Source of the DNA: a virus
Direction: 5' to 3' (one strand)
Virus record (IMG/VR): IMGVR_UViG_3300042564_000781
Coordinates: 1-64,000 of that record
DNA: 64,000 nucleotides
Below, piece after piece: positions 1-30,484 of this stretch. The notes under the pieces were generated by a model, which saw only the letters and a program-made list of their open reading frames with translations, was not told the origin of the DNA and ran no database searches. Each line of letters starts with the position of its first letter. Within the stretch, counting starts at the first letter, position 1. Position numbers and translations under genes: made by a program.

Positions 1-364
1 CAGTATAGTTTGTGCCCGTTACATGTCGAGTTTCGATCTTGTTTCTTACAGGATCTAAATTGGTCACTGAGCGATCATCTATTACTTTGCTGTAGGTTTC
101 ACTGTATAATGTAGCACTTGTACCTGTTGAATTTGGCGTTAAGTAGGTAATAATGCCTGTAGGGTCTACAGTTGTGCCACCGTTGCCAAAGGCAATTTCA
201 TAGATAAATCCTTGCCCAGCGTTAGCAATACTCTCTGCCAACGCAACGCTCATATTTTCGTAGTGTATAGCATTACGTTTATTAATGAAAACCTCTTGGG
301 TTTTAGGGTCATAAATTTTAATATGTCCCTCTATGTGAATTCCTGATAAGTCTTTACCTTGCAT
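1..364 (-). CDS. Structural protein in gp8 position, partial (3' end outside window)
   Basis: The N-terminal 121 codons are present; the gene runs off the left edge. The protein begins MQGKDLSGIHIEGHIKIYD and continues through an open frame with no stop. The ATG is preceded by GAGAGATCA as a weak ribosome site, and a late-promoter-like GATAAATA overlaps the stop of the upstream giant gene. It sits directly downstream of gp6 and the giant protein, the place gp8 has in T4 (order 6-7-8), so a baseplate or tail role is likely. I do not recognise the family from sequence; the gp8 idea rests on position only. Confidence 0.7.
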   Translation of the reverse strand, partial: MQGKDLSGIHIEGHIKIYDPKTQEVFINKRNAIHYENMSVALAESIANAGQGFIYEIAFGNGGTTVDPTGIITYLTPNSTGTSATLYSETYSKVIDDRSVTNLDPVRNKIETRHVTGTNYT

Positions 365-384: not shown

Positions 385-392
385 TATTTATC
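385..392 (-). promoter_or_regulatory. T4-type late promoter candidate (GATAAATA)
   Basis: On the minus strand GATAAATA, one base off the T4 late consensus TATAAATA, lies about 20 bases before the ATG at 364, leaving room for a short leader. It overlaps the stop codon of the giant gene. Confidence 0.45.
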
Positions 393-3300
393 GTGGCCAA
401 ACAGTTGTGTTTTCCTTCAAGAAATTAGCAATCTTATTATTAGATCTTGCTAAACTCTTACCTGGATCGTTCCACAATGTTAACTCTTTCTTGACAATAA
501 CCACCTTAGTGCCTTCGGCAGCAGCAGTTGTTAATGTAATTCCGTTAGTAGTTCCGTCTACACTAAACTCTGCAGGGAATGTGCTGTCGCCTTCGTCGCT
601 GTAAGGATAACCATTTGTTTCTTCAAACAAATCGTAATCTACTTTTTTCAACTTGTATCCATTGACAAAAACGTCAACTTCGTTTTCATTGGCAGGAATG
701 TACTGTAAGGTACCTAAGTTTGTAGTAACTCCATTGCTAATAATAGTATCGATAATAATTTTATCAGTATATGGGATTGTTTCTGTAGGGCCAATATCTT
801 GCACTGATTGTCCTGCTAGATGTACTAGCGGAGTTCCTGTTCCTAATGTGCCTCGGCGTAATTGTCCTAGTACATTGCCAACTTTAGTAAAGTACTCAAT
901 ACGTTCCCCGTTAATCTCAATAATACCCGGCAAGTTTAATGCTGGATTAGGTAACGAGAATACTGATCCGTCTGCTACTGTAATTTCAATATCTGATTGT
1001 GTTAGATTACTTGCTAGTACAGATGCTTTTTCTGCACGTAAACGTTTGTAATGTACACGATTTAGCATATCTTTAAATTGCATGAAACCAAATGTACTAC
1101 GAACCGTTTGATCAGAGAACAACATTACCTGTACTACATCAGTAGACTCTAAAGATTCTTTTAATCTAACAGTAATCCGATCATCATCAACAGCATAATC
1201 AACACTGTGCGTTAATAGTGTGCCATTTTTAATAATCCAAACAAAATCGTCAGACACTGCGGAACGACGTAGTGTAAAATATCCACCTAACTTATTTGTA
1301 AATTCATAGTAATCAGTTGTACCAGGAGTTAGTGTAGTTGACGGAATCATTATATCAGTAGTTCTGTCTATATCTAATAACATGTGATTGTAGAATGAAA
1401 TTATTTCAATGTTAGTACTTGCTGGATATACTGTAGAAAACTCAATAGTTCCTGCATCAGTTATTGCATAATCAAAATCTACGTTAATTACCACTGCTAA
1501 CTTAGCACCCTCTATGTATGACGATTGAGAAAGCTCAATTGTGATTCCTAATAAATCAACAATATATCCCACTCCAGGTGTTAGTGCATTAGAATCAGAG
1601 TATACTCGAATATCATTAGAGCTAATCGAATAAGTAGCAAATTTATGTGCAGGAATTGTATAAGATAACACATCATCGGCCATAGTAAAGTATATTACAG
1701 TCGACGGACGTAATATTTCTTGACCTTTACGTACAATAACATTTGTTTCGTAAGGTTGTAACTTGTTTCCTGGTAATACTTCAGAATTTAAATTATCTAA
1801 ATTGTAAATTGTAGCAGTTCCATTAGTAGTGATCATCTGACTCTTTACTACACTAGCAGTTTGCACAGTAGTTCCACTATCTATCATATAGTTAATAAGT
1901 GAGTCAGCTTCAACTGATGAACTAAATCGTATAGCAACTCTATCAGGACTGTCATATGTATTATCAGTTCTAAATAATTCATACGTGGGTACAATGCCAT
2001 TAACTAATACCGTCGAAGTTAGTTCACCTTCGATCCACGGAGCGCGGGTAACATATTCAGTAGTAGTACCGTCAGCAATGAAATGGTCCAAATCTAATAT
2101 GTTTTCACTATTAAAGCCTACGCTAATTATGCTAACTATAGAATCAACCAACGGCGCAGTGTCAAATATTACTGAGTTTGATGCCCAATCAATAGTATAT
2201 GCAGTTTGTTCAATTATTGCGTTTCCAACTTTAACAATTACTGCTCGATCAGTGGCAAAATATTGACCTATAATAAATGTATCAGTAACACCATTGCCTA
2301 CATAGTTTTTAAATAAGATGTTTGGGGCACCACCTTCTGGCCTATGATATACTTTAATAGCTAGTGCATCTGTTATATGGCCAGGAACAATCTCTTCTGG
2401 AGCATGACTAGTTGCAGGTGTAACAAAATCGTCGCCGTCAATGTTAATATCTGCCGGAGCGTATCCGGTTGCCGTTGTTAGTACTGAGCCGTTGAAAGCG
2501 CCACCTTGTAATTGTGTATCATAATCATTAGGTCTCGGAAGGATACTTCCGTCACTAGTACTCTTACGGAATATAACTTTGTCCTTATCGTTAATAGTTA
2601 AATTAGCACTAGGTAATGTAAATATTTCTGTTGTTCCGTCTCCGGGAATAGAAATCATTATTGCATCAGCATTAACGATTGTACCCTTTTCCCATTCAGA
2701 AGCCAAGAATGTTACAGACGAAGTTGCTACGTTAGACACATAATAATAGTCTTCATAAACTACTCGTGTTCCTACAATATATGCATATCCGCTTACCCAG
2801 TCGGGTGTACCATAATATAAATCATCAAGTCTAGTAGGAGCACCGTATGTGTATCCATATACAGTTCCGCCGGTGCCTAATACAACAGCCCTATCTAATG
2901 TTATTGAAAAAGTATCTTCAGAAATTACTTGACGAATTCGATATGTGCCAATGTAGTTTCCAGCTGTCACTCCTGCTATAGTAATAAACATATCAGCTGT
3001 AAATCCGTGTGGAGTAGCTGTAGTAATCCAAACAGACGTATCACTTAATGCAGATTCAGTTGCTGAACTAATATTAACAGTTGCAGTTGGGTTGTATCTA
3101 GAAATATAAACATTTAATAATTCTCCAACATTAGGAGCATAATTTAAATCATATGTATAGTCTCCTGCTCCTGCTGTGAATATTCTATCGTCATACGTTG
3201 GATCAAACCCGTCCCACTCATCCGTAAACCACGGAAGGGCGTCCCAACCACCAGTTGCTCCAAACCCGAGCCCTTGTAGTTGTACACCGTTATAGTCAAT

Positions 3301-6300
3301 CCCGTTCATTAGTTGAGCTAGATCTTTACCTAACATTCCACTCGTTGGCTCGTAGAAGAAATTAATTCTGTCAGCTGCCGACATATGCTCAAAGTTTTTC
3401 TCATAGGTAATTCTAATTGTTTCTCCCACGGTAGGTGCAGTATCTAGTGTTAACAATCCAGAATAACTTGTATATCCTTTGCTGGTAGATTTTTTAGTCG
3501 ATAACGTATATTCGCCACGTAAAATATCAATGCCAGTAACTCCGGGGGTGTCAGGATTTATTCCTGACGGGTATAACTTAATAGAGGCTGATCCTATTTC
3601 TATTCTTGGACTCCACTTTAACGCAAATTGTACACGTGAACCTGTGCCAAGTAATGTTTCAGTCTCAGTTTTTTCACTAATATAATAGTCTCTAGTTATT
3701 CTATCAAACTTAATAGCAATCTTATTTGCTCTAACTACTTCACTTTCAATAATTGCAATTGCAGTTGCTGCGGTGCCTGTCTCAGATAGTCCGCCATCTA
3801 GTGTAATAGTAGGTGCTTTAAGATAACGTGTACCCCCAGATATTAAATCAATCCTATTAACTTTGCCATTGGAAATATATGCTTTTGCAGATGCTCCTGT
3901 GCCAAATCCGCCTTCTATTTTAACTACCGGTTGATTAATATATCCATTGCCGCCGTTAAATATTTCTACAGACTGAATAGTAAATCCCACATGATCATTC
4001 CAGTGCTTCCACGGATATGTTAAAATGTCGCTTGATGATGCATCAATAGTGCCATTATTAGTAACTGTTACATTCATAGGGGTAACTGTTAGATTTTCAG
4101 TAACTAACGGAATTAAGTCAAAATCAGTTGTTGATTGTCTAGCATAATCTGTTTTATTATAAGAGCTAACATACTCTCTAATTTTTGTTCTATAAGGTTT
4201 TACTTCATTAATATAGTCTTCAAAATTAGACAAATTATCATTATTATATGTAACTTTTTCTTTTAACTCGCCTACATTATGAGTTGCTTTTACAAAGCTA
4301 GTCTTAAATGCCCAGTCAATAAAAATTTGCTCGTGCATTACATAACGCAGACTTGAAAAGAATAATTTTAAATACTCAACTCGAAGATCATCAACAAGAA
4401 TTTTATCTTTAATAGAATTAATAATAATTCTCAATTCAGCTGCTGCATAATTATCATATAAAGAAGCATCAAATAATTGATTATCAAATCCTACAGATGA
4501 GTTAACAAATGTATAAATGCTACTTGCAAATTGTATAGTTCCGGCCTGTCTACCAACAACTTTATAATTTTGTGTATAATCGATTGTTGTTAAATTATTG
4601 TATTTTTCTAATAATAGCCAGCCCCCGCTACCAATATTTTTTACCTTAACTATACTGCCATTGTTTGCAGACAATGTTACAAGATAGTATGTATTGTCAA
4701 CCAGATAATCAATTTTTGTAAACTGCGTATATCCTGTAGCATACCAATCAGCATAGTTCCAGAATTTTGTCACGTCATATGATTGGCTTCTTATACGATT
4801 CCAACTATTGTCTCTAGCAGTCCACTCATAGATACTCCATTTATCAAATGAACTAGTATCACTAGATACTAACACCGCATGAGGTCTTACTATTAACATA
4901 GTCTCGCTAAAATAGCCGCGGCCAGCGTTTTGTATAGTAACACTGACAATTCTACCAGCAGTATCTAATACTGGAAGTAGTACTGCTCCGATCCCCGAAC
5001 TTACAATTTTAATAAGTGGGGGATTTTTGTATCCATATCCTGGATTATCTATCAATATATCAGTTATAATTCCATTTTCAGTTACCGCAGTTAGTGCTGC
5101 TTGAACTAATGATGCAGTTCCGATAAATCGTAACTCAGTGTCGAAGTCAATAACAGTGTCCCACAATCCCGAAACTGTCGACGGGGCAGGTTCAGATAAC
5201 ATTAGACCACTTATATCAAAGTCATCAACAATTAAATTTTCCATTAGTATAGCATTAACTCTTTCTATATATTGTTTTAATGCTTCAACTCTATTAACAA
5301 ACATTCCCTGACGAGGTCTAAATTCTATTCCGTAACGATTTTTTACTGGAAGATTAGTATCAGGAATAACTCGATCGTTACTGTCTTTTCCAATTAAACT
5401 GTCTATCCATTTGTTTTCAATATTTTTAGGAATAGTTGTGTTCGGGTGTTCGCTTATAATTTTCCATTGACTGTGCATGTTAATGTCATGATTATCTATT
5501 AACCATGTCTGGAAGTTTAATACTATATCAGTACCTTCCAACAAATTAGCAAAATTGACTAAACTAAAACTATTTGCACCAGTGGGGGCAACACATGTGT
5601 ATCCGTATCCTATAGGATCAGATATTAGACTAGATATCTTTTCTGCTGATATTGTTCTACTAACAGAATTAGGTGTTATTTTTTTATTCTTGACCCAGAA
5701 ATAATATGTAGGAATTAATTTTTGACCAACAGTATCATATTTGTTTTTAATACTGTAGACAGTATCTCCATAAAGACTCGTACCGCTTATACCTGCGGCC
5801 AGGCCTTTAGTAGTATCAGCTAACTTGTCCCATTCGCTTGGTAGATATTTTGTTTCGACCCATTCGTAAATGTCAATGCTGGCAGTTTTATATAACTTGT
5901 TCCATGTAGTTGATCTATATACTACTTCACCGCCTTGATTGTCCATAAACTTAGCACGAGTTAAATTCCACCATAACATGCCTACTTGAGCAGTAGTCCA
6001 ATTTAAACCGCTATCAACGTTAACTGAACTAGTGCCTACAGAGTAAGTTGCTGGGTCAAAATATGTCTTGTATCGAATTTCTTGATCGGCCAATCCAGGA
6101 ATTTTTCCCTGTATTGGGTCAACTACGTCAAGGTATGATACAATAGTATTAGTTATTTTATTATATAGATATGCTTTTTTAACACTAGAGATATTTGGTC
6201 TCGGCTGTTCATACACTTTTAAAGTCCACGATTTTAACAACGGTGGTTTAACATATGAGAATACTGCTCCGGCAGAGCTGTTAAAATTAGGCGCTCCAAC

Positions 6301-9300
6301 TAAAATTGTATTATTACCTGCAGTGATTGATGCTCCGTAACTGACAGCAGTTGAGGTAACGCTTTCACCGTATAGAAATTTAGTACCGTAAAGATCATAA
6401 ATGTCAACTCGACTATCACCTGTAGCAAATACTACTAATGTAGTATCGTTGTTAGTAAACTGTACCGTTGTGCCAAATTGGTCGCCTATATCTTTAGTTA
6501 AACTTGTAATTGTTTGATACGGTGTGCTAGTATTGTCAGTATCGTATATGTAGACCGTGCCAATGTCACTACCAATGGCAATGTACTGAGAAGATTGAGC
6601 TATTGAAATACTTTCACCAAATCTGTCACTTGTTGCAGTGCCGGTAAATGTAGTCGACAATACATAGTTGCCCAACGTTAGAGTATATAATTTTACTTGA
6701 CCTTTATCTGAAACAGCACTTGGTACCGCTGCGGCAAACATGTTACCTGTTGCAGATATTGTAATATTTTCAACATCCGTTATTACTAACGGATTTACAT
6801 AATTAGACCAACTACTTGTTCCGGTAGCTTGATAAAAATATACAGCATCGGTTGCTGATACTGCTAGTATATAAGTATTATCTAATTTAGCAAATGCTAA
6901 CTTAGTTCCAAACAATTCATCAGCACTTGCATTCTGACTTATAATAGAATTAACAAAAGTATATCTATTACCTGCTGCTTTGTAATACAAAGAAACATAA
7001 CCTTGATTGGCATATCCGCTACTGTCAACATTACTTGCAGACGGGGACGCAATAGCTAACCACTTACCGTCTGCTGACAATGCAGTTTCAGCGCCAAATT
7101 CTTGACCGGCAACATCAGCTATAGACGGGTCAATTACGAGTGAATGAGTTTGAATCCATTTATATAATTGCGTAGTATTAGCATTGTATGTCGCTGAAAT
7201 GTTCTGTCTTTCTAATATAATTACCTGGTCAGCATCTGTAACAACTGCGGTGGTACCAACTTGAGATACTGTTACTTTTTTACCAAAGTTTAATCCAGTA
7301 AGATCAGGAATAGTACTAAGATCTATATTAAAAGAATTATATACTGAGTTATTTTCATAAACTCCCCAAGTGCCGTTACCAGAATCTTTAGTCCATAGTA
7401 ATTCATTAGGTTTAATACTAGTTGGCAAATTATCGTTTGCATTATCGATTGTATCAAACAAACAAGGAACAAACTGATACAATACTATTCCTGGTGGTTC
7501 TGGTAACGGTTCCCAACCTGTTGCTACTGTGCGAATAACAATCTTCCGCGGTGTTGAAGCGTCTGGCGTTCCGCCAACTCGTTCTATACCAACTGAGTAC
7601 ACTGTGTAAAATCCATCTTTTGGAATAGCAACATTTGTAAGACCTACTATGTCGCCAACAATTACGTTAGGGATTGTATTACAGGTAAGAACTACCTCTC
7701 CAAGTTTACTAGTAGAATTATAAAAGTATTCTGCTTTAGTTACAGTGAATAAACTTTGAGTAAATCTGTATACATTCCACTTTTCGCTAAAGCTATTTAA
7801 TTTATTTTCAAATGCGCACCATACATAATCACCTTCAGTAAAGGTACTAATATCATTTTGTAATGCATCGGCTAATGTGTCAACACTTAGCAATACATCT
7901 TCATATCTAACAAATCCAGGAGTACGCAGATACTGTTTAGTGCCTGTTACTGACCATATATCGTTATTATATCCTAACGGTTTAATGTACACATCCAACG
8001 GACGTTGTCTGTAGATAAAATCAACTACTGTGGAATCAACAGTTGATACTAGCTCTACAGGTTGAGGATTTATTTTAAATTGTGATTCATCTAAAATAAA
8101 TTCAGTTTCATTGAACGCAGTAACAGCGCCGTATGATCCCACACGGACTGCCCATTCTTCATTGAATGTCAAACTCTCTACGCCATCAGCACTTAGCACA
8201 TCAAATAATTTATTGAGAACATTTTGTGTGCCTTTTTCAATAATCATACCTTGATAGAATTTATATTGACTCACATCGTCTTTGATAATATTTTCAAGGT
8301 ACTGACGTTTCTGATATCCAATTAAATGCTGTGCAAATTTCTGTTGCTCTGCATCAAAATTATCAGTATCAAGGTCGTAGAAATCAGTAAACTGTTCTGA
8401 TCGATAGTCCCAGTTAGCTGACATTTTTGCTGTAGGTTTTTCAGCAAGTAAGGACCAGTCTGCGGCATTGAACTTTTGTACACCTGGCAAAGTTGATAGT
8501 GCAGAATAATAAAATTCTTTATACTTTACAATGTCACCTAGTTTATAATCAGTCCATGGTGTCCAGTCATATATTCTAGCTTGATCAAAAATAAATCCTG
8601 GGATGTTAAAACCGCCCTTCCAACCTTGGCTGAGATATCCAATAACTTTAATACGTTCCTGACGATATCCGGGTTCAAGGTCATAGATAACATCATTAAA
8701 CAATGTTCTATTGTCTAAGATCATCACATGTTCTTTTTGTATCAGATAAAATACAGCGCCATATATTCCATGGGTAGTACTTGTAGGAGTTAGTGAGAAT
8801 GAATTCTCATCATCATTTCGATAGGTATTAGTAAACTCAGGTTCTAATTTTTGTCCGTCTACTCTAAATATCTTATATCCATAAAACGGATCTAGTAGAT
8901 CGTTAACCACACTGTTATTAGTAGATAGAGTTATTCTATTTGCTGCTGGGCTTACAGAAAGTACTGCTCCGGCTCCCCAATTCTGAGTTGTCCAAAACAT
9001 AAATTCTTTTACTGCGGTTTCCCAGTTGGTAATAGCTTTTAATGTAGTGTTAAAGTCATCAAATACAAATCCTTGATTTGATAGGTATGCGCCGTAGCCT
9101 TGCAAGAAATCTACTACTTCTTGGACAGTTGCTAACTTTGTTCCGTATCCTAAGGTCAATGTTAGGGTAGTATCCCATGACTTCCTAATGTTAGCATCAC
9201 GGCCGCCGCTAACAGGCAATTCTGCAAGTCTAGAAAATAATGCAGCGTCAAACGTATCTGTAGAGGTATGTGTAACATTTACTCGATAATATCGATTACC

Positions 9301-12300
9301 GTAATAAACAATACCGCCGGCAACATAACGTTTACCAGCTGTCCATACAATATAACTTTCTGATATTCCGCCAACGTTGATAGTTCTAGCAGATTCTAAC
9401 CACGGGTAGTAATTAAAATACGGTTGCTCGTTATAATATCCAGTGATTTCAAAACCATCAACATGTTTGGTAATAACTACTCCGCTGTATACTACTTTTT
9501 TAACTGCTGACGAGGTGTTTAAGAAAACAGTATAATTTTCTTCAGGAATAAAAATACTACCAGTACTAGTGGGACTCTTACTATCTAATAATAACTTAAA
9601 TTTATTCTTTGCAGTAAATCCGCCTAACTTAACTCCGAGATTGTTAGTTAGTGTATCTAAATCAGTCTGGTACTGGCTAATCAACACGGTTGTATCATTA
9701 GTCAAATAGTCAATGATGTAGTTGATCAATCCCGATGTTGAAACTCGTTGGGTACTTGCAGAAGTTGATGGTAATACAATATCAGCAAGCCTAATACGTA
9801 AACCAGTTTCAGAATAGACTAATTGATTACTAAGATTGCGTACAATACGGCTTCTATCTAAACATGTTCCCAGAACTCGATTAGGTTGCATTAGTAATGC
9901 TGCTTGGATAATTGCAAAAGGATAATGTCCCGAGCGGCGCCATGCAGACTCAACTGGGCCAACGTCGCCGAATGTATAATAACCTTCTGCAGTTGGTTTA
10001 ATGGGACCGTTTACAAAATTAGCGTTGACTGGGTCTTGCAAGTCGCCATTCTCGTCCACAGGCACTCCGTGAGCTAGGATAGACTTTGCAAATTTTTCCA
10101 AACGTCTAATAGGCTGGCCAGGTTCTCTAACTATACCTTGACGAAGGTCATCCCACATGATTAAATTGTCACTGGTGTAAGGTACTGGTCCGTAGACTTC
10201 TTGCCACCACGCTGGTGGTAGACTAAATCCTAAACATTCCCATGGGTGTGTATGTGGGCGGTCAGTATCTAATAACCAACGATATATACCTCTCCAGTAC
10301 GCTGGAACAGGATATCCATTAGGGGAATAATTTCCGCGGTAGTTAAACGTAAATGGATCTAATCTGTTCCACCATTCAACGTTCTGTTTAGTAAAATCTT
10401 GTCCAACATTGCTGGTCCATTGATAAAAGAATGTGCCAAGGATAGCTTCGTATTCGTCTTTTGAATATACAGTTGGTCTATCATATCCTGGAATGTAATC
10501 ATAGATATTAAATATATTAGGATTATATTGTACTTTGATATTGTTGAAAATACGCTTTTCTAATTCTAAGATTAGGTCATCGCGATAGTCGCCAAATGCA
10601 ATAGTTATACTACCATCGTGTCCTTGAATAACTTCCGTTGGTTCAGCATAGGTAGTGTCTACAAATTTTGAAGGAACAAACTTAGGATATAGGCCTAGTT
10701 TAGTAGGGGTAGCAGGACAGAATGACCCGTCAGTACTTTCGTACTCTACTGCCATGATAATATCACCATCAGTAAGGTCAGTTAGTATTTCAAAGAATAC
10801 ATCTGTACCAAATATGTAATCTTGGCCTTCTACTAACTGCACATCATTTAGGTAAAGATTGACTGCTTTATTTGATAGGGCAGTTAAATTAAATGCCGTG
10901 TTTAATGGATATATTTTTGTACGAGCATCAAGTACTGTATATTCAAATATATTAGACGCGGCATATCCAAACATATCTGATAGGTAGTAAGGACGTGATG
11001 TAGATTTATCTTTTGCTAATTCTGCTAGTACATAGTCAACATGGCGTCTTGGATCTGTGTCGATTCCTGAACTAGTTGCTGTTACAATAAAGGCTCTTTT
11101 AAATTTACTGTAATCATCTCGTGCTTGTGCTAGTGCCTTAAACACATTTGCAGTTGGAGTGCCGAGGTGGTATAAACTTAAATTTACAGGGCCGGCATGT
11201 TGAATAAATCGTGTACCATAGGGTGTAACATTTCCTATATCTCGCAAATTGCTAGTGCCAGGATAAGTGCCAACAAACGTAGTAATATTATCAATTATAG
11301 TATCAACATGATCAATTACTTGGCCTAATGTAAATTCTGATAAATTATTGTTTAACGGATTGTTTTGTAAATTAACTGGAATTTCATAATATCCATTGTT
11401 ATTTTTTTGTTGTGCAGAAAAACATTTTAATGTAACTACATCGGTCAGTGCAACATTAGTTTCTAGTAATATATATTTTCTAACACTATTTTCAGTAATA
11501 GTATAATTAGACCTAGGCTGTCTCTTCCCGTTAATATATACTCTAACTTCTAAATCAGCTAGATTATCTACACTTGAATATACGTCAACTGGAAAATTAT
11601 TAACTAGTCCACTTTCTTTAAAAGTTCTAATAATAGGCTGTAAATTTGATATTAGTGTAGTCTTCCATCCGTTAACATACTCGAAAGTAGTTAACCCCGA
11701 AATTGATTTTAAAAATCCAACATCAGTAGTCTGTGTAATAATATCAACTACATTTTTATATTTAAAAGTATCAGACAGCAGATTAAACTCAAAAGCAATG
11801 TCACCGATATTGTTTATATTTTGATAGGATAATGGAAATCCTAATTCGGTATCATTTGATCCGGTCCCTACTTTATACGAAAATAATTTAGTACCTGCAA
11901 ATGTTGTACCGTCATAGTCTAATGCGTTTCCGTAGCTGTCGCGGTCGGCGGCAAATACGTCAAACAATGGAGGTTGGTTGACTAATGTTTTCGTCTGGCC
12001 AATTTTCCATGTAGTTCCGGTGTACCAGTACATTAGTCCTTGATTTATAATTCCTTGCTCTACTAATACAGTTTCATTTACTAATGGAATACTGTCATCA
12101 GCTTCAACTAAATTAATTTGTTTACGATATCCGGAAAACACTTCTAATTTGTGTACGTCCGATCCTGTTGCGAATATATCAGCAACTACTGTTAAATTCT
12201 TGTCAGTGTATAATTTTATTTGTGTAGTATTAAGTACGAGCACATAGTAGGCTTTTCTGTTGATCAACCCAGAAATATCTATATTACCATTATTGAGATA

Positions 12301-13926
12301 TAATATTTGATTGCCAGTTGTTAAACCGTGACCTATGGCATTCGTCAATGTATCGGTTTCTATTGTAATAATATTAGTATCTGGATCAATCCCAGGCAGG
12401 GCATAAAAACCAATCTGGCGGCCAGGTACTGTGACATTTACAAAGTTAATATTAAAGATTCGATCTTTAACTAGGGAGTCAGTATCTGCTGTAAACAGTA
12501 TTCGCATTCCTGCAGCAAGGTCTACACCGTCAACATTATATCCTAATTGCCCTTCAACAGTTGAGAATACATCTGTAGTAAATGTATCAACTAATGTAAC
12601 ATTGGCCTTTGCTTGATGACCAAAATTAAATAATTTTAGTCCAGCATCAAATTCAATAATAGGACGAATTGCTCGAGCTGATTGATCAAGAGAGGGAACT
12701 TGATCAGCAGCATTGGCGGCTGCTATAATTACATCTTGATGGAACCAACGGTTGTATCGACTCCACGGATTTCTATCTGGAGTACCTCGAGCAACTAATA
12801 TGTAGTCTTTATATTGTGGGAACGAAGTGGCAGTACTGAATGGGCTTTGGTCAAAAGGCTCATCGTCAAATAATAGTGCCCTTTCTTGAGAATATGTACT
12901 GATAATTTCCAAATCAGTTTCTGCAACTAATCGAATTGCAGTGCCCACTCCCTCTACATACCAATAGCCTGTTGCATAGTTTATAGGAAAAATGTTGCCT
13001 TCAAATTTTAACTTCATACCGTTTGACAACGGAATACCGTTACTCATAGTATATGATTTCTTACCTAAAATATCAGCATCAACATTTAAGTATGTGTTTT
13101 CATCAATATCCAATACATGGAATACTCCGCCAGTATCAACACTGTTTTCACTAACATAGTATAATACATCAGGCGAATTAACTCCTACAGTAAAAGTTAT
13201 TGTGCCCAACTCGACCGCAGAATTAGAAACTCCAATTGTATATCTATCTAGAGCACCTGCTACTCTAGCAGTTTTAATACTGAACGGATTTCCTGGCGAG
13301 TTGATAACAAATGTATATGTTTGCCCTCTATACAAAGTTAGGGTAGGATTGCGAGTTAGTCCATCGGGTGAGAATAAAAATGCATAATTATCTGATTCAT
13401 CAACTGCGTCAACTGTATATGTACTTTCTATAGCCAGTTGTTGTCCGGTAATTTCAATAGGTGCTGGGCCGTACGGTAACCAGTAGTATTGTTGATAATT
13501 AACAAATTTATCCCAGTTAATATGCGGGTCCCACGAGTATGATTCTTGACTGTTTATTCTTTCATGGTTTAAAACATTGCCACCGAGTACATCAACATGA
13601 TTTATATGATCAATATAGTCTTTGTAAAAATTAGTATTTCCTAGATAGTCTTGAATAACTGCTGCTGGCTCTAATTGATAATTTTGTCGAGTAGTATCAG
13701 CAGCCTTTACAAAAATGTCAGCTGATGTTATTGCTTTGGCCGTTTGTCGTCCAATGTATCCGTTAACTTTTTTAACTGCTCCGGGCTGCGTTAGTTGATC
13801 TAAAGTTGCTTGTAAAAACTTTTTATTACTATCTGTTCTAAAAAATCTTGGCAATAAATTTGCCGAATCTCTGTTGTCAGCATTTGACAACGGTAGGCCT
13901 GATTCGTTTTGATCGTTATTTGCCAT
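388..13926 (-). CDS. Giant modular virion structural protein (4512 aa), gp7 position
   Basis: One uninterrupted 13.5-kb frame, the largest gene here. Its start overlaps the gp6 stop by one base (TAATG), so the two are translationally coupled. The N-terminal ~160 residues are Trp/Tyr-rich (YYWLPYGPAPIEI). Residues about 2270-2560 show FG-GAP-type beta-propeller repeats (SADGKWLAIASPS). Glycine-tyrosine modules (GYGYKNPPLIKI, GNGYINQPVVKI) lie near 2960 and 3330. Three carbohydrate-binding-like repeats (YxxGxxVxYxxxYY) lie near 1530, 1790 and 3720 and match those of the plus-strand fibres. By synteny with T4 (5-6-7-8) it occupies the slot of gp7, a baseplate wedge protein of about 1000 residues, and is more than four times larger. 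I infer a baseplate or peripheral tail structural role. The exact function is unknown. Confidence 0.85.
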   Translation of the reverse strand: MANNDQNESGLPLSNADNRDSANLLPRFFRTDSNKKFLQATLDQLTQPGAVKKVNGYIGRQTAKAITSADIFVKAADTTRQNYQLEPAAVIQDYLGNTNFYKDYIDHINHVDVLGGNVLNHERINSQESYSWDPHINWDKFVNYQQYYWLPYGPAPIEITGQQLAIESTYTVDAVDESDNYAFLFSPDGLTRNPTLTLYRGQTYTFVINSPGNPFSIKTARVAGALDRYTIGVSNSAVELGTITFTVGVNSPDVLYYVSENSVDTGGVFHVLDIDENTYLNVDADILGKKSYTMSNGIPLSNGMKLKFEGNIFPINYATGYWYVEGVGTAIRLVAETDLEIISTYSQERALLFDDEPFDQSPFSTATSFPQYKDYILVARGTPDRNPWSRYNRWFHQDVIIAAANAADQVPSLDQSARAIRPIIEFDAGLKLFNFGHQAKANVTLVDTFTTDVFSTVEGQLGYNVDGVDLAAGMRILFTADTDSLVKDRIFNINFVNVTVPGRQIGFYALPGIDPDTNIITIETDTLTNAIGHGLTTGNQILYLNNGNIDISGLINRKAYYVLVLNTTQIKLYTDKNLTVVADIFATGSDVHKLEVFSGYRKQINLVEADDSIPLVNETVLVEQGIINQGLMYWYTGTTWKIGQTKTLVNQPPLFDVFAADRDSYGNALDYDGTTFAGTKLFSYKVGTGSNDTELGFPLSYQNINNIGDIAFEFNLLSDTFKYKNVVDIITQTTDVGFLKSISGLTTFEYVNGWKTTLISNLQPIIRTFKESGLVNNFPVDVYSSVDNLADLEVRVYINGKRQPRSNYTITENSVRKYILLETNVALTDVVTLKCFSAQQKNNNGYYEIPVNLQNNPLNNNLSEFTLGQVIDHVDTIIDNITTFVGTYPGTSNLRDIGNVTPYGTRFIQHAGPVNLSLYHLGTPTANVFKALAQARDDYSKFKRAFIVTATSSGIDTDPRRHVDYVLAELAKDKSTSRPYYLSDMFGYAASNIFEYTVLDARTKIYPLNTAFNLTALSNKAVNLYLNDVQLVEGQDYIFGTDVFFEILTDLTDGDIIMAVEYESTDGSFCPATPTKLGLYPKFVPSKFVDTTYAEPTEVIQGHDGSITIAFGDYRDDLILELEKRIFNNIKVQYNPNIFNIYDYIPGYDRPTVYSKDEYEAILGTFFYQWTSNVGQDFTKQNVEWWNRLDPFTFNYRGNYSPNGYPVPAYWRGIYRWLLDTDRPHTHPWECLGFSLPPAWWQEVYGPVPYTSDNLIMWDDLRQGIVREPGQPIRRLEKFAKSILAHGVPVDENGDLQDPVNANFVNGPIKPTAEGYYTFGDVGPVESAWRRSGHYPFAIIQAALLMQPNRVLGTCLDRSRIVRNLSNQLVYSETGLRIRLADIVLPSTSASTQRVSTSGLINYIIDYLTNDTTVLISQYQTDLDTLTNNLGVKLGGFTAKNKFKLLLDSKSPTSTGSIFIPEENYTVFLNTSSAVKKVVYSGVVITKHVDGFEITGYYNEQPYFNYYPWLESARTINVGGISESYIVWTAGKRYVAGGIVYYGNRYYRVNVTHTSTDTFDAALFSRLAELPVSGGRDANIRKSWDTTLTLTLGYGTKLATVQEVVDFLQGYGAYLSNQGFVFDDFNTTLKAITNWETAVKEFMFWTTQNWGAGAVLSVSPAANRITLSTNNSVVNDLLDPFYGYKIFRVDGQKLEPEFTNTYRNDDENSFSLTPTSTTHGIYGAVFYLIQKEHVMILDNRTLFNDVIYDLEPGYRQERIKVIGYLSQGWKGGFNIPGFIFDQARIYDWTPWTDYKLGDIVKYKEFYYSALSTLPGVQKFNAADWSLLAEKPTAKMSANWDYRSEQFTDFYDLDTDNFDAEQQKFAQHLIGYQKRQYLENIIKDDVSQYKFYQGMIIEKGTQNVLNKLFDVLSADGVESLTFNEEWAVRVGSYGAVTAFNETEFILDESQFKINPQPVELVSTVDSTVVDFIYRQRPLDVYIKPLGYNNDIWSVTGTKQYLRTPGFVRYEDVLLSVDTLADALQNDISTFTEGDYVWCAFENKLNSFSEKWNVYRFTQSLFTVTKAEYFYNSTSKLGEVVLTCNTIPNVIVGDIVGLTNVAIPKDGFYTVYSVGIERVGGTPDASTPRKIVIRTVATGWEPLPEPPGIVLYQFVPCLFDTIDNANDNLPTSIKPNELLWTKDSGNGTWGVYENNSVYNSFNIDLSTIPDLTGLNFGKKVTVSQVGTTAVVTDADQVIILERQNISATYNANTTQLYKWIQTHSLVIDPSIADVAGQEFGAETALSADGKWLAIASPSASNVDSSGYANQGYVSLYYKAAGNRYTFVNSIISQNASADELFGTKLAFAKLDNTYILAVSATDAVYFYQATGTSSWSNYVNPLVITDVENITISATGNMFAAAVPSAVSDKGQVKLYTLTLGNYVLSTTFTGTATSDRFGESISIAQSSQYIAIGSDIGTVYIYDTDNTSTPYQTITSLTKDIGDQFGTTVQFTNNDTTLVVFATGDSRVDIYDLYGTKFLYGESVTSTAVSYGASITAGNNTILVGAPNFNSSAGAVFSYVKPPLLKSWTLKVYEQPRPNISSVKKAYLYNKITNTIVSYLDVVDPIQGKIPGLADQEIRYKTYFDPATYSVGTSSVNVDSGLNWTTAQVGMLWWNLTRAKFMDNQGGEVVYRSTTWNKLYKTASIDIYEWVETKYLPSEWDKLADTTKGLAAGISGTSLYGDTVYSIKNKYDTVGQKLIPTYYFWVKNKKITPNSVSRTISAEKISSLISDPIGYGYTCVAPTGANSFSLVNFANLLEGTDIVLNFQTWLIDNHDINMHSQWKIISEHPNTTIPKNIENKWIDSLIGKDSNDRVIPDTNLPVKNRYGIEFRPRQGMFVNRVEALKQYIERVNAILMENLIVDDFDISGLMLSEPAPSTVSGLWDTVIDFDTELRFIGTASLVQAALTAVTENGIITDILIDNPGYGYKNPPLIKIVSSGIGAVLLPVLDTAGRIVSVTIQNAGRGYFSETMLIVRPHAVLVSSDTSSFDKWSIYEWTARDNSWNRIRSQSYDVTKFWNYADWYATGYTQFTKIDYLVDNTYYLVTLSANNGSIVKVKNIGSGGWLLLEKYNNLTTIDYTQNYKVVGRQAGTIQFASSIYTFVNSSVGFDNQLFDASLYDNYAAAELRIIINSIKDKILVDDLRVEYLKLFFSSLRYVMHEQIFIDWAFKTSFVKATHNVGELKEKVTYNNDNLSNFEDYINEVKPYRTKIREYVSSYNKTDYARQSTTDFDLIPLVTENLTVTPMNVTVTNNGTIDASSSDILTYPWKHWNDHVGFTIQSVEIFNGGNGYINQPVVKIEGGFGTGASAKAYISNGKVNRIDLISGGTRYLKAPTITLDGGLSETGTAATAIAIIESEVVRANKIAIKFDRITRDYYISEKTETETLLGTGSRVQFALKWSPRIEIGSASIKLYPSGINPDTPGVTGIDILRGEYTLSTKKSTSKGYTSYSGLLTLDTAPTVGETIRITYEKNFEHMSAADRINFFYEPTSGMLGKDLAQLMNGIDYNGVQLQGLGFGATGGWDALPWFTDEWDGFDPTYDDRIFTAGAGDYTYDLNYAPNVGELLNVYISRYNPTATVNISSATESALSDTSVWITTATPHGFTADMFITIAGVTAGNYIGTYRIRQVISEDTFSITLDRAVVLGTGGTVYGYTYGAPTRLDDLYYGTPDWVSGYAYIVGTRVVYEDYYYVSNVATSSVTFLASEWEKGTIVNADAIMISIPGDGTTEIFTLPSANLTINDKDKVIFRKSTSDGSILPRPNDYDTQLQGGAFNGSVLTTATGYAPADINIDGDDFVTPATSHAPEEIVPGHITDALAIKVYHRPEGGAPNILFKNYVGNGVTDTFIIGQYFATDRAVIVKVGNAIIEQTAYTIDWASNSVIFDTAPLVDSIVSIISVGFNSENILDLDHFIADGTTTEYVTRAPWIEGELTSTVLVNGIVPTYELFRTDNTYDSPDRVAIRFSSSVEADSLINYMIDSGTTVQTASVVKSQMITTNGTATIYNLDNLNSEVLPGNKLQPYETNVIVRKGQEILRPSTVIYFTMADDVLSYTIPAHKFATYSISSNDIRVYSDSNALTPGVGYIVDLLGITIELSQSSYIEGAKLAVVINVDFDYAITDAGTIEFSTVYPASTNIEIISFYNHMLLDIDRTTDIMIPSTTLTPGTTDYYEFTNKLGGYFTLRRSAVSDDFVWIIKNGTLLTHSVDYAVDDDRITVRLKESLESTDVVQVMLFSDQTVRSTFGFMQFKDMLNRVHYKRLRAEKASVLASNLTQSDIEITVADGSVFSLPNPALNLPGIIEINGERIEYFTKVGNVLGQLRRGTLGTGTPLVHLAGQSVQDIGPTETIPYTDKIIIDTIISNGVTTNLGTLQYIPANENEVDVFVNGYKLKKVDYDLFEETNGYPYSDEGDSTFPAEFSVDGTTNGITLTTAAAEGTKVVIVKKELTLWNDPGKSLARSNNKIANFLKENTTVWPR

Positions 13927-17421: not shown

Positions 17422-17865
17422 TTAATTCACAAGTCCGTTAGCTTGATCAAATTTCAGCTGTATAGACTCTTGTATGTAGTATGGCAGGTAGGTTAATCTA
17501 CATTCGATCTGTAGGCCACTTTCATATTGTGTGATGATAACTTGGTCAGCTCGAACACGTGGATCATAGTTGATAATGTCCTCAACATTCTTTGCCACCA
17601 ACTGTTTAAGTTCCTCAGTTAGTGGTTCAAATATCACATCCCAGATCACTGTGCCAAATGTTGGATCATTTAATTTTTCACCTTGTCTTATATGGAAATG
17701 GTTGAGAATATCCTGTTTGATCAGGGCAAGATCATACAGTGCAAAGCTGGTAGCATCTTCAGATATAGTACTAAACCCTTTATAGGTCTTGGTACCGGGA
17801 ACATTCTGCTGAGTTCGATTACCTGGTAAAGTAATCTTTTCATATAGTTTAGGATTAGCTGACAT
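17422..17865 (-). CDS. 25: Baseplate wedge protein gp25-like
   Basis: A 147-residue protein of the GPW/gp25 family, a conserved baseplate wedge component of contractile tails that contacts the sheath. The family core is clear: DLALIKQDILNHFHIRQGEK, LNDPTFGTVIWDVIFEPLTE and the C-terminal YDPRVRADQVIITQYESGLQ. Length matches the family (T4 gp25 is 132). It lies between gp5 and gp6, transcribed leftwards, 17 bases after the gp5 stop. Confidence 0.95.
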   Translation of the reverse strand: MSANPKLYEKITLPGNRTQQNVPGTKTYKGFSTISEDATSFALYDLALIKQDILNHFHIRQGEKLNDPTFGTVIWDVIFEPLTEELKQLVAKNVEDIINYDPRVRADQVIITQYESGLQIECRLTYLPYYIQESIQLKFDQANGLVN

Positions 17866-17882: not shown

Positions 17883-19652
17883 TTATTCTTCATCAGGTTC
17901 TGCAGGAGAGAATTTAATAAAAGTATCTTCAATAGTTGTATATTGTTTCCATGCATCTGCAGGAGCGATCATTGTTTCTGAAAAATCTGACTGGTCTGAT
18001 ATTTGCTCTGCATCAGTATCTTCATATCTATCTTCTAGATCTCTGTCAGTTTCTTCTGGCTTGACTTTTAACGGATCTAAGTTTTCATGGTATGGATACG
18101 GCTCAAATGTTGGAATGCGGCGCATAATACTTGGAGGTATGACGTCTTCTACAAACTCTCCAGATTCATCTGACAGCTTATGTAATTTTAAACGTTGAGG
18201 TAATACTGCTTCAGTAGCATTAGCGGCAGTGGCTGCGGTAGATGCCGTAGGTCCGTTAAAATTAATGTTTCCGCCAGATATAGTAGTATTAGCTGCTTTA
18301 ATTTCCATATTCCCTCCAGAAGTTTGAAAGTTGTGGCCGCCAATATTGAAGTCAAAATCTCCGCCTACTTTATGTTGATACGCACCGTCAAACACTTTAT
18401 CTACATCTTGTAATACATGCTGTAAGTAGTTTTGATCGTATAATTTGTTTACATCTTGTTTCACATGATGTGTATAATTTTGCTCGTATGTTTTGTCAAC
18501 ATCTAACTTAACATGTATTTTTTGATTTCCGTCAACAATTAAAATTTGGTCTTCAATCACATGAGTATGTTTTTCACCGCGAACTTTAGTATTAAAATTG
18601 CGACCACATTCAATATTGATATCACGATCTGCATAAAAATTTAAATCGTTTTTACTATGTACACTGACACTGTCCTGTGCAAAAATGTCAATCTTGCCGT
18701 CACTGGTCAGTTCAATCCAAGTGGTACCTCTAGCATTGCCAATATAGATCAAATCTTCAGTATTGTGCATCAGGATTTGATGCCCTGTACGAGTTCTAAA
18801 TCTCATCAACTCGTTGTGCAATAGTGTAGGATCACCGTCAGTTTCTTGATTTTCTACTCTAGCATATTCAGGGGGGCCTTCGCTTGCTGTTGTCTTACGT
18901 AAAAATTTATCGTCACCGTCGTCCATTACAAAGCTGCTGCCGCCGAGTCGACTAACAGCAACATTGTTAGTCCTGTACTCTCGCTTACCAGTGTCTCCAG
19001 TTTTTGCGCCGTCTTGTTTATCTAAAGGTCCGGGAGTTGAAATGCCAAAGACCATTGACGGAGTTTCTCTTCTAGCACTGCTTGATGTAATGCCTCGGAT
19101 ATCATCTTCTAACAATCCCTGATCGTCTAACACAATTTCTTGTGGTGTTGCAGGTTTTGTAATAGCAGTTGCGTCAAGTGTTTCAGCTCCAATAACACTG
19201 TTGAACTCAGCAACTGGCACACGCTCTTTATCAGTAACTTTAGTCTCGTCTACATTGTAATAGGTACTTGCATACCCGGGAGTCATAAAATTCTTTTTGT
19301 CATCGAGCACACAGCCCATCCAAAAGTAGCCTTCTCCTTTGACAAAAATAACCATTACAGTGGATCCTACATCGGGAGGTATCATCCACATGCCGTATGA
19401 TTTTTGTGTGTTATTATAGTTGTCTTCAGCGTCACTAACAAAATCAACGCTGGTGATTCCCCAAAACGGGCTTAGGTATCTTGCCTGCTGTAATTGACCT
19501 TCAGCTGCTTCATCGTTACCACTTTCTCTATATAATTGCACCTCAAGGATGCCCATATAATTTTTGTCGTGATGACTAATAACTTTTGCTAGAAAGGGAC
19601 CAGGGTCTGTTGTTTTTCCTGCATCAGCAACATTTCTTGTATCTTCACTCAT
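17883..19652 (-). CDS. 5: Baseplate hub/central spike protein gp5-like, no lysozyme domain
   Basis: The central spike protein of the baseplate hub. Residues about 15-130 form the gp5/VgrG-type OB fold (FLAKVISHHDKNYMGILEV, MWMIPPDVGSTVMVIFVKGE). Residues about 280-460 show the spike beta-helix pattern (TSDGKIDIFAQDSVSVHSKN, INIECGRNFNTKVRGEKHTH), with three near-identical 16-residue repeats (QDVNKLYDQNYLQHVL type) before the tip. T4 gp5 carries a lysozyme between OB fold and helix; here that linker (about 130-270) is low-complexity and shows no lysozyme catalytic motif. The C-terminal ~110 residues are acidic. It starts 3 bases after the upstream hub gene's stop. Confidence 0.92.
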   Translation of the reverse strand: MSEDTRNVADAGKTTDPGPFLAKVISHHDKNYMGILEVQLYRESGNDEAAEGQLQQARYLSPFWGITSVDFVSDAEDNYNNTQKSYGMWMIPPDVGSTVMVIFVKGEGYFWMGCVLDDKKNFMTPGYASTYYNVDETKVTDKERVPVAEFNSVIGAETLDATAITKPATPQEIVLDDQGLLEDDIRGITSSSARRETPSMVFGISTPGPLDKQDGAKTGDTGKREYRTNNVAVSRLGGSSFVMDDGDDKFLRKTTASEGPPEYARVENQETDGDPTLLHNELMRFRTRTGHQILMHNTEDLIYIGNARGTTWIELTSDGKIDIFAQDSVSVHSKNDLNFYADRDINIECGRNFNTKVRGEKHTHVIEDQILIVDGNQKIHVKLDVDKTYEQNYTHHVKQDVNKLYDQNYLQHVLQDVDKVFDGAYQHKVGGDFDFNIGGHNFQTSGGNMEIKAANTTISGGNINFNGPTASTAATAANATEAVLPQRLKLHKLSDESGEFVEDVIPPSIMRRIPTFEPYPYHENLDPLKVKPEETDRDLEDRYEDTDAEQISDQSDFSETMIAPADAWKQYTTIEDTFIKFSPAEPDEE

Positions 19653-19655: not shown

Positions 19656-22124
19656 TTATTCTGCCAATTGCGGGCCGACTCCTGCATTATCTGTAGTTTG
19701 TTGTATCTCTTCTGGTGTGCGTATTTCGCCTTCTCCAGTTGCTCCAGTTGCTACTGCAGGTTTTACATTTTGTGTATCCTGTAAAAGTTTTACTGTACCA
19801 CCTTCTGCTGCCGATGGGTTGCTTGATTGCCCTGCACGTCTGATTAATGTTAAAACTTGCGTAAATCTTCCACGAGCAAATGTGCTTTCAACTCTAGTAA
19901 CTTGATATAGTCCACTAAACTGATTGATTAATTTTGTTGGTCCAAATGTATAAGCACCTTTGCTCATGTCAAGATCAATTGGAGTTCTAAAATCAACTGT
20001 TACATCAACTTCTCCTGTTTGATAATCAATACTATAGTCGGCTGTCATATTTTCATATTGAGACTTTGGAGCAGTATAATTACCCATACCGCTATCACCT
20101 AGATAATATGGATCGCCTAAAATAGTCAGTGTGGTATTAACCATGTCAAACGGATTGTTCAATACATTGTTTTGAAAATCCTTTGCTGCTCTAGTTTCAG
20201 GAGTGTCCTTGGCGCTGCTGCTGCTACCGGTGTTAGTAGTTACTGAATCGTATCGTACTTCTTTTGTTACTTCTCCCTCTATTGGTTTACTAGAACCAGC
20301 CGCTGGCGGCGCTGGTTGAGCTTCAACCGCAGGATTAGCTCCCGACGATTCTTTTGCTCTTTGTAGGCCAGCAGTGTTCTTTCCAGCATCTGCAGCCATA
20401 GCTGTATAAAATGCCGCTTTAAATTTAATGTCAAAATTTATTACATCTAAGTTTTTAGCTGTATAGATATAGTTGTACGCTTTAACTGCCTGTTTCTTTG
20501 CCTGTTTAACTTTAGGGTTGGCAGTATTTGGGGGCATAAAACTTGAAGCATCGATACCAAACGGTACTACTCGGTACACAATAAGTTTTGGTTGAACCCC
20601 AGTTGTGGCCATGTTGGCATCAGATGGAATTGTAAACACCTGGGCTTCTATTCGCCACCATGGTATTTTTCCAGTATCAGAAAGCTGTGTAGCTGTTAGT
20701 GCTTGACGACCATAGTCACTCATTAGTAAAACTTGATTTATAGCATTAGGAATGTCAGTACCTTGTGAAAATTTAAAAGTACCTTCGGTAGGGTCTATTG
20801 ATATTTTTCCTCGAGTATATACTTTAGAGGTTTCATTGTATACTAGGCCTTCTTTAGCAAACGAAGAATCTCCAATACGTTCAGGAGTAAATCCCATACT
20901 GGCTCTACCCAAACTATTCATATCAGCAGTATATTGTATTAGTGTTCCGTTACCGCCTTCTTCTTTAGCTAAGATTGCTACTTTTAATTTACCTTGTAAA
21001 TCTCCGCCTTGTACTGCTCCTGTATTTGGAGAACTTGTAGCTGATCCGCCATCGTCGTCATTTCCTACTGGAGCTCCTGATGTTAAATCTTTAGGAAACA
21101 TTATCAATATTTGATCAGGTACTCTACCAATTCCTTTTTTAGCTGCATCGTTAAGACGTTCATTTAATACAACTTGCAAACTTCGTTCACCTGTTTGTAA
21201 CATTTGTTCAACAGTTTTACCTCTGATAGTTATGTCAGTCTTGAGTTCTAAATAGCTGCTAGCAAAACCTTTTTCATTCCACGGAAATGCTGCTACATCA
21301 TATTCAGCGCCACGTCCTGTAACTTTCATTTCTATAGTTGATAATTTTAAAGGAAAGTGTTTTGTTGTTTTTTCTATAGATAATGAATCTGCTGCAATGC
21401 CTTGTTGTGCAGAATTTAAATGTCCCTTGAATTCAATTGTTAACAATAACGGAACATCCATATAGTTTTTATAACCAGCATTTTGAGCAGCAATTTGCAA
21501 GGATTCAAAAAACAATCCCATGCTGTATATTTCAGTAACTTTGAAATTTAATTTAGTGGCATTTGTGTTGCCAGTATCTTTATCTAGATTAATAACACTG
21601 CCTACTGTTAGATTATCCATGAAGAAATCAAACTTACCATAGGCAGTGTTTACTCTGTTGTCAGGACTACCGCTGCCGCTTTTAAAAATGATTTGACCAA
21701 GCTGTCCTTTCTTGTAGGTTTCATTTGGAAAATTTATAGCAACTGCATCAAGCACACTTAATGTAAAGATATAATTATAACTGGCATAACTGTGTAATAT
21801 ATTTGCCATTGGCAACTCAGTTCTAAGATTTACTGTAGTTGCAGAAGAATTTATTGAGTTACTAATATTACCTAGATCAACAATGTTTGATATTTGTTGT
21901 TGTATCTGTCCTAACGCTCCGGCAATGCCTGCAATCTGTCCGGGTATGGCTGAGGTTAATGCTGTTCCAAGATTACTTATTCCGTTAGCTGCTGCTCGTT
22001 GTATTCCGCTAATTGCCCCATTGACTGAGCCCAGGGCACTGGCCAAGCCGGTATTAGATACAACTTTAGATACTTGGTTGACCGCAGATGTTGCAGAGTT
22101 AAGAGCAGAATCTAAAAATCCCAT
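19656..22124 (-). CDS. Large baseplate/hub structural protein (822 aa)
   Basis: The N-terminal ~80 residues are Ala/Ser/Gly-rich helix. The core begins near LPMANILHSYASYNYIFTLS and includes TKLNFKVTEIYSMGLFFESL and GYKNYMDVPLLLTIEFKGHL, a pattern I associate with an aquatic T4-like virion protein family. The C-terminal part (DYQTGEVDVTVDFRTPIDLD, SGLYQVTRVESTFARGRFTQ) resembles hub proteins that cradle the spike. It lies directly before gp5, so a gp27-equivalent hub role is a reasonable inference but not shown by a recognisable gp27 motif. Confidence 0.75.
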   Translation of the reverse strand: MGFLDSALNSATSAVNQVSKVVSNTGLASALGSVNGAISGIQRAAANGISNLGTALTSAIPGQIAGIAGALGQIQQQISNIVDLGNISNSINSSATTVNLRTELPMANILHSYASYNYIFTLSVLDAVAINFPNETYKKGQLGQIIFKSGSGSPDNRVNTAYGKFDFFMDNLTVGSVINLDKDTGNTNATKLNFKVTEIYSMGLFFESLQIAAQNAGYKNYMDVPLLLTIEFKGHLNSAQQGIAADSLSIEKTTKHFPLKLSTIEMKVTGRGAEYDVAAFPWNEKGFASSYLELKTDITIRGKTVEQMLQTGERSLQVVLNERLNDAAKKGIGRVPDQILIMFPKDLTSGAPVGNDDDGGSATSSPNTGAVQGGDLQGKLKVAILAKEEGGNGTLIQYTADMNSLGRASMGFTPERIGDSSFAKEGLVYNETSKVYTRGKISIDPTEGTFKFSQGTDIPNAINQVLLMSDYGRQALTATQLSDTGKIPWWRIEAQVFTIPSDANMATTGVQPKLIVYRVVPFGIDASSFMPPNTANPKVKQAKKQAVKAYNYIYTAKNLDVINFDIKFKAAFYTAMAADAGKNTAGLQRAKESSGANPAVEAQPAPPAAGSSKPIEGEVTKEVRYDSVTTNTGSSSSAKDTPETRAAKDFQNNVLNNPFDMVNTTLTILGDPYYLGDSGMGNYTAPKSQYENMTADYSIDYQTGEVDVTVDFRTPIDLDMSKGAYTFGPTKLINQFSGLYQVTRVESTFARGRFTQVLTLIRRAGQSSNPSAAEGGTVKLLQDTQNVKPAVATGATGEGEIRTPEEIQQTTDNAGVGPQLAE

Positions 22125-22125: not shown

Positions 22126-22425
22126 TTATAGTCCTAATATATCTATCAAACTTGCTTTTTTAGGTAGGTAGATTCGAGTACCCGGAGTAAAATCGTATAT
22201 AGGATCTTGTAATATATCTAAATTACGTTGGATAAAAACCCACCATAATTTATTAGTGCCGTACAGATCATGGGCCAATAGATCAGGACGATGACTGTAC
22301 TGTGGCTCTATAGTATAGATCGGATCATCTGCTTCAGCACTTACTGGTCGAATTTTTAAAATATTCAAATAGTTATTTGATATTGTAGTATTTGCCCAAG
22401 GGCTGGTATTAGAATATGTTGCCAT
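22126..22425 (-). CDS. 53: Baseplate wedge protein gp53-like
   Basis: A 99-residue member of the T4 gp53 baseplate wedge family. Key features are YSHRPDLLAHDLYGTNKLWW followed by VFIQRNLDILQDPIYDFTPG and a LysM-like IYLPKKASL end. It is shorter than T4 gp53 (196) but matches the short form of many T4-like phages. The start codon overlaps the stop of the preceding gene (TAATG), and the next gene starts 1 base after its stop, so it is tightly coupled in the baseplate operon. Confidence 0.92.
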   Translation of the reverse strand: MATYSNTSPWANTTISNNYLNILKIRPVSAEADDPIYTIEPQYSHRPDLLAHDLYGTNKLWWVFIQRNLDILQDPIYDFTPGTRIYLPKKASLIDILGL

Positions 22426-30422: not shown

Positions 30423-30432
30423 TTTTACTCCC

Positions 30433-30440
30433 GATAAATA
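30433..30440 (+). promoter_or_regulatory. Late promoter candidate for the tape measure gene (GATAAATA)
   Basis: GATAAATATAATGTA at 30433 is identical over 15 bases to the element before the fibre gene at 63138. It lies 45 bases before the ATG at 30485, and supports that start over an in-frame ATG at 30410, which would be upstream of this promoter. Confidence 0.6.
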
Positions 30441-30451
30441 TAATGTATCCT

Positions 30452-30459: not shown

Positions 30460-30484
30460 TACGCAGTTTTCCAGGAAAAATAAT

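Follow-up and report, generated by a model that had tools for sequence, protein, structure and literature searches.

The subunits of the gp7/gpI/TssG type are described as sharing a defining fold, in which a helix-turn-helix joins two copies of gp6 in a core bundle and is accompanied by a trifurcation (PMC10457771, PMC6300606). P2 gpI is given as the gp7 equivalent of the small contractile machines (PMC6300606). The gp7 equivalent of XM1, gp17 (242 aa), is reported to form a bundle with two gp6-like chains, and its internal loop and C-terminus carry twelve spikes (PMC10457771); similarly, two loops of TssG hold two TssK trimers (PMC6300606). For phage phAPEC6, a protein of 382 kDa (gp245), listed right after the wedge protein gp244, was represented by 17 unique peptides (7.6% coverage; PMC7247149), and for phage CBB, 21 peptides were reported for CBB_236, which adjoins the wedge protein CBB_237 (PMC5259590). 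For CBB, gp6, gp25 and gp53 are listed, and gp7 is not mentioned (PMC5259590). In the open-access literature searched, we found no paper naming these giants as gp7, and the only annotation that they have carried so far is 'virion structural protein'.

The window analysed, of 64,000 bases, covers bases 1-64000 of a virus record that is 120,667 bases long and may itself be a fragment. The giant protein called in the original prediction was confirmed as a single open frame of 4512 codons with an ATG start, lying at exactly 388-13926 on the minus strand and encoding a product of 502 kDa. The genes of this region are transcribed in the order gp53-like, virion protein, gp5, gp25, gp6-type wedge, giant and a truncated gene (Table 1). 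As the window begins at base 1 of the record, the gene that follows the giant (2-364) is cut by the record end. This order had been likened to the 5-6-7-8 order of T4. We observed that the giant indeed comes directly after gp5, gp25 and gp6; however, the next gene was not recognisable as gp8.

Table 1. Genes around the giant and features along the giant protein, in window coordinates
Feature	Position	Strand	Evidence or remark
Gene after the giant, truncated at the record end	2..364	-	PHROG 11259 (annotated unknown function)
Giant protein, PHROG 10938 family	388..13926	-	4512 aa, 502 kDa
gp6-type baseplate wedge protein, 1148 aa	13926..17372	-	PHROG 10646, 3e-297; PHROG 219, 2e-20
gp25	17422..17865	-	Pfam GPW_gp25, 9.9e-9
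gp5-like hub/spike protein	17883..19652	-	PHROG 13211, 1.8e-43; PHROG 430, 3.1e-16; Pfam Gp5_trimer_C
Virion protein gene	19656..22124	-	Between the gp53-like and gp5-like genes
gp53-like wedge protein	22126..22425	-	PHROG 7145, 3.1e-27; Pfam gp53, 7.6e-4
Conserved N-terminal block (N block), aa 20-150, LP at 25-26	13477..13869	-	Putative first gp7/gpI core piece
Cupredoxin-like beta sandwich, aa 163-277	13096..13440	-	Model of aa 1-520; Z 11.5, 99 residues, rmsd 2.3
CBM5/12-like stretch, aa 1528-1555	9262..9345	-	Pfam PF02839, E 1.8e-5, 25.1 bits against a cut-off of 26.2
Chitin-binding (CBM5/12-type) fold, aa 1783-1829	8440..8580	-	Z 8.4, 45 residues, rmsd 1.2
K block, aa 1850-1990, KGT 1898-1900, EW 1924-1925	7957..8379	-	Putative second gp7/gpI core piece
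FG-GAP-like beta-propeller repeats, about aa 2276-2560	6247..7101	-	Limits by eye; weak Pfam propeller matches; variable in the family
Conserved block, aa 2570-2900	5227..6219	-	Alignment of giants
GxGY module, aa 2941-3005	4912..5106	-	By sequence
KPYxTKIR block (KP block), aa 3187-3272, KP 3243-3244	4111..4368	-	Putative third gp7/gpI core piece
GxGY module, aa 3292-3392	3751..4053	-	PHROG 460, 3.4e-14; common to the cyanophage giant
Variable C-terminal part, aa 3400-4512	391..3729	-	Repeated NG...Y-type segments, by eye

Several other large genes were seen in the window. Two paralogous proteins of 1337 and 1962 aa (44200-48213 and 48333-54221), 34-69% identical in stretches, both match PHROG 'baseplate wedge' families, and the one at 48333-54221 carries laminin-G lectin domains that are similar to part of the giant of cyanophage S-MbCM6. 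Tail-fibre-like genes of PHROG 9851 lie at 54980-63088 and 63138-63998; one of them (2702 aa) also weakly matches PHROG 460, a GxGY-type profile. An open frame of 1428 aa (30410-34696), directly before the portal gene, had no PHROG match at E 0.001.

In a profile search, the giant matched PHROG 10938 (annotated 'virion structural protein') at 975 bits (1.2e-292) in five stretches. When its first 1975 residues were compared by tblastn with 50,697 phage records, 70 were matched, all at less than 60% identity, and 14 of these covered at least 80% of the query. We examined nine isolates closely, all of which encode such giants: PA5oct (3857 aa), RaK2 (3326 aa), Atu_ph07 (4449 aa), Phosso (4555 aa), SCTP-2 (3807 aa), Vibrio phage 2.275.O (3771 aa), GAP32 (3341 aa), 121Q (3323 aa) and XacN1 (3313 aa). 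The giant directly follows the gp6-type gene in the window and in eight of the nine jumbo isolates, the exception being Salicola phage SCTP-2, where the two genes are about 90 kb apart. The SCTP-2 giant is preceded by another hypothetical protein, of 3096 aa. Of 215 candidate stretches from environmental viral contigs, 212 encode relatives of the first 1200 residues; for the K block, relatives are encoded in at least 580 stretches (580 among the 600 matches listed). The longest relative seen was an open frame of at least 5762 aa, which extends past the end of its stretch.

Relatives of the giant have been shown by mass spectrometry to be virion proteins. The record of PA5oct gp355, its orthologue, bears an ESI-MS/MS note, and phAPEC6 gp245 and CBB_236, from their size and position, would also be orthologues. 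The giant is not a singleton, and belongs to a widespread, known but uncharacterised family of jumbo-phage virion proteins. These giants beside gp6 are among the largest jumbo-phage proteins that we met, and are common in environmental viral DNA.

We evaluated whether a gp7 core could be recognised in the giant or elsewhere in these genomes. Ten segments of the giant gave no significant profile match to the T4-gp7 family, and the N block gave none to gp7, gpI or the N-terminal region of the cyanophage giant. The T4-gp7 profile was positive in three of 13 records (T4, Vibrio phage K491 and S-MbCM6), and in none of the ten comprising the record of the window and the nine jumbo isolates, while a model of the K block had one match in each of the same ten genomes. 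Pfam Tail_P2_I was over its cut-off in none of these ten, with nothing at all in the record of the window; gp7 equivalents are small and not easily detected, this family also missed Mu and T4, and its sensitivity is limited. The separate gp7 homologue that was to speak against the original prediction was therefore found neither by the T4-gp7 profile nor by Tail_P2_I, within their limited sensitivity and in a record that may be a fragment.

These same results bear on another explanation, namely that the giant is a jumbo-specific peripheral baseplate or tail-decoration protein beside gp6, the true gp7 equivalent being small and too diverged to detect. Such an equivalent could have escaped Tail_P2_I as those of Mu and T4 did, the giant itself is without a significant gp7 match, and in SCTP-2 it lies away from gp6. 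However, no alternative gp7 candidate came up with either profile. We consider this explanation unlikely, though it is the most serious of the alternatives.

Structure prediction in segments, proposed as a check of the prediction, was partly informative. The AlphaFold model of aa 1-520 (mean pLDDT 71, pTM 0.51) contained the cupredoxin-like domain, in which the Cys/His pattern that we take to be the copper ligands of cupredoxins looks lost by eye. The model of aa 1590-2075 (mean pLDDT 62, pTM 0.34) contained the chitin-binding-type domain, whose best structural match was the baseplate chain 8fqc_P1 of phage Milano. The putative gp7 core helices, however, were modelled at low confidence only, with a pLDDT of about 40-60 in the N-terminal core helices and about 30-40 in the K block. 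Foldseek and VIA-align returned mainly CBM5/12-like and Ig-like domains for the K model and the cupredoxin-like domain for the N model, and no gp7 chain was among the matches listed for these low-confidence models. In a viral structure library, the first matches were relatives of the giant itself. Searching the PDB by sequence, using the whole protein as well as the K and N profiles, returned nothing relevant. Pfam at E up to 10, with 15 K and 15 N members, gave stray single-member matches only, and the PHROGs on the 15 K members gave their own PHROG 10938 and a weak PHROG 13743 in three of the 15 (best 0.038).

A lead came from P2 gpI. The motifs of gpI occur in the order LLP, KGT, EW and KP, an order that the giant repeats with LP, KGT, EW and KP. 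In an alignment of 41 giants (the window giant, the nine isolates and environmental long open frames, after 34 of 75 were dropped as redundant at 85% identity), the motif columns held LP in 40 (MP in one), KGT in 38 (KGS in three), EW in 39 (EF and FW in one each) and KP in 37 (PP in one, a gap in three). Five of the nine isolates have the four motifs exactly, and the other four show one or two departures. When the K-block profile (102 rows) was aligned with 18 gpI rows, KGT and EW fell in register (P 0.005). This score was reached by none of 200 column-permuted decoys and by eight of 200 block-permuted decoys, which do not break up short motifs and test the match more severely. For the KP block, the alignment with the KP of gpI gave P 0.079, a score reached by 5 of 200 and 24 of 200 permuted decoys. 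Since the motifs had been spotted before testing, these targeted P values are weakened; the E value of the full-length search is unaffected. In that unselected search, with all 4512 columns against gpI, the K block came at rank 1 with E 0.18, and one of 38 permuted decoys scored higher. T4 gp7 against the same 18 gpI rows gave P of about 0.2, an accepted pair that goes undetected by this method; the gpI lead is therefore suggestive and not proof. The ordered motif match speaks against a merely peripheral protein.

A solid precedent is found in cyanophage S-MbCM6, where the gene after gp25-gp6 encodes a protein of 7022 aa annotated as gp8 (JN371768.1, 50779-71847). The sole T4-gp7 profile match of this genome lies in this protein (5.1e-6). 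Around residue 700, at a FYSTKG motif, it aligned with T4 gp7 with an hhalign probability of 96% (E 1.2e-9). When its first 3700 residues were searched against the gp7 family, rank 1 was aa 695-727, corresponding to T4 729-761 (4e-5), and rank 2 was aa 3471-3510, corresponding to T4 865-901 (P 0.083), with the order kept. These two elements are about 100 residues apart in T4 and about 2,750 in the S-MbCM6 giant. The S-MbCM6 protein demonstrates that the parts of a gp7 core can come to lie thousands of residues from one another; of its two elements, the first is significant and the second is supported by rank and order. The window giant occupies the same slot as this protein, which does carry a gp7 core; this again argues against a peripheral role. 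A 1378-aa open frame of S-MbCM6, annotated 'gp7 baseplate wedge initiator', had no T4-gp7 match.

The gp8 annotation of the cyanophage giant could also indicate that the giant is a fusion of gp7 and gp8. T4 gp8, used as a single-sequence query, had matches in none of 11 records of the window's kind, and in S-MbCM6 it matched a separate 511-aa open frame and not the 7022-aa giant. We rejected the fusion of gp7 and gp8 as very improbable on these grounds. Since T4 gp8 matches that separate open frame, the gp8 label of the S-MbCM6 protein looks wrong.

The 41-giant alignment also indicated which parts of the giant are old. Conserved blocks in the isolates are found at about aa 20-150, 370-500, 610-970, 1050-1500, 1600-1780, 1850-1990, 2570-2900 and 3050-3270, and the poorly kept regions are aa 160-350 (cupredoxin-like), 2050-2560 (propeller), 2900-3050 (GxGY) and 3280-4512. 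Much of the long 'insert' is as well conserved as the putative core, and the best-kept 50-residue window, aa 1201-1250 with 45% identity, lies outside any putative gp7 core and inside the supposed insert, a point in favour of a peripheral protein. From this pattern and the location of the best-kept window, the giant consists, at the level of the alignment, largely of an old, conserved scaffold and carries a small number of variable modules; it is not a small wedge protein with a recently acquired fibre.

The propeller, Gly-Tyr and sugar-binding-like modules noted in the original prediction are present, as weak Pfam propeller matches with FG-GAP-like repeats, as GxGY modules matching PHROG 460, and as CBM5/12-like domains (for which sugar binding is putative). 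The GxGY module at aa 3292-3392 is 46.9% identical to the S-MbCM6 giant over 64 aa (E 2.5e-10). From such modules it had been proposed that a wedge protein is fused to a tail fibre, giving a baseplate with built-in host-binding domains. Besides these modules and the cupredoxin-like domain, this proposal can draw on the propeller and the C-terminal part being the most variable regions, and on aa 4313-4354, which weakly match a beta-helical trimerization domain in Pfam (5e-4, under the cut-off). However, no fibre shaft or fibre family was over threshold in the giant in Pfam or PHROG, the CBM5/12-like folds are found in other baseplate and cap proteins too, and the added domains are generic beta modules. 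Proteins of the gp7 type are present as one copy per wedge and tail fibres are trimers, so a chain in single copy per wedge is unsuited to a trimeric fibre. The window has separate fibre genes of PHROG 9851 (54980-63088 and 63138 onwards) as well as a lectin-bearing protein, so that receptor binding need not fall to the giant. With the conserved insert in addition, the fusion of a wedge protein with a fibre was not supported and is improbable; the modules themselves are real, and assigning any of the added domains to a fibre is not supported.

We favour, with a probability of roughly 60%, the reading that the giant is the gp7/gpI/TssG-type wedge subunit of this phage, in which long inserted domains enlarge a small core. 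For the gp7 slot in which it had been placed speak its position, the finding of no other gp7 in the ten genomes, the cyanophage precedent and the gpI motif order; against it stand the lack of a significant T4 gp7 match and of a recognisable fold. One copy of the giant would be present in each wedge, and its short helical pieces would pair with two copies of gp6 beneath gp25. The compact core would be made of three pieces, the N block (LP at aa 25), the K block (KGT at 1898, EW at 1924) and the KP block (3243). These putative pieces are about 1,870 and about 1,345 residues apart, with presumably mostly beta domains between them and 1,270 more residues after the last. Much of the added mass would be old conserved scaffold, with the propeller, the GxGY modules and the C-terminal part as its variable portions. 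The added domains may leave the wedge at places comparable to the loops of XM1 gp17 and TssG. Because those loops hold receptor-binding proteins, the added domains are probably at the baseplate rim, where they could form the outer part of the baseplate, serve as docking sites for fibres or contact the cell.

If true, this gp7/gpI assignment would complete the wedge, account for the missing gp7 and make a single protein the place at which the baseplate grows, and the 'gp8' annotation of the cyanophage giant would be put right as well. A broader and more tentative idea, possible although well short of an even chance, concerns both jumbo phages and cyanophages: the small gp7/gpI wedge core would have been interrupted at the loops by which simple contractile machines hold their receptor-binding proteins, with beta modules totalling thousands of residues inserted there. 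If so, the rim and adhesion surface would be covalent parts of the wedge itself, and gp7 would be where giant baseplates grow and diversify.

Among the known systems, P2 gpI and its counterpart Tri2 of pyocin R2 (PA0619; Tail_P2_I, PF09684) are comparable to the giant in that P2 gpI shares the motif order and its gene follows that of the gp6 equivalent, gpJ. However, P2 gpI has about 176 aa against 4512, and the giant has its putative gpI-like pieces scattered across 3,200 residues. Vibrio phage XM1 gp17 and TssG of the T6SS are also small gp7 equivalents, whose loops or C-terminus are described as holding spikes or receptor-binding-like trimers, and the likeness to the giant is one of description only. 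T4 gp7 resembles the giant as the product of the gene after gp6 and as a large multi-domain wedge protein. It differs in length (1032 aa against 4512) and has no significant sequence match to the giant, and its helical core comes after the extra domains (FN3, weakly matched in Pfam).

The S-MbCM6 giant shares with the window giant the slot after gp25-gp6, the giant size and the GxGY modules, and its gp7-type pieces are likewise far apart. Its gp7 core is significant by sequence, whereas that of the window giant is not, and the matches between the two are confined to modules, without full-length homology. The nearest relatives are those of PHROG 10938, from RaK2-like and other jumbo phages. The window giant, with 4512 aa, exceeds most of these isolates (3313-4555 aa), in which its cupredoxin-like region, propeller and C-terminal part are poorly matched; nevertheless, RaK2 ORF070w, GAP32_230, 121Q 582, PA5oct gp355 and Atu_ph07 gp180 are homologous to it over most of its length.
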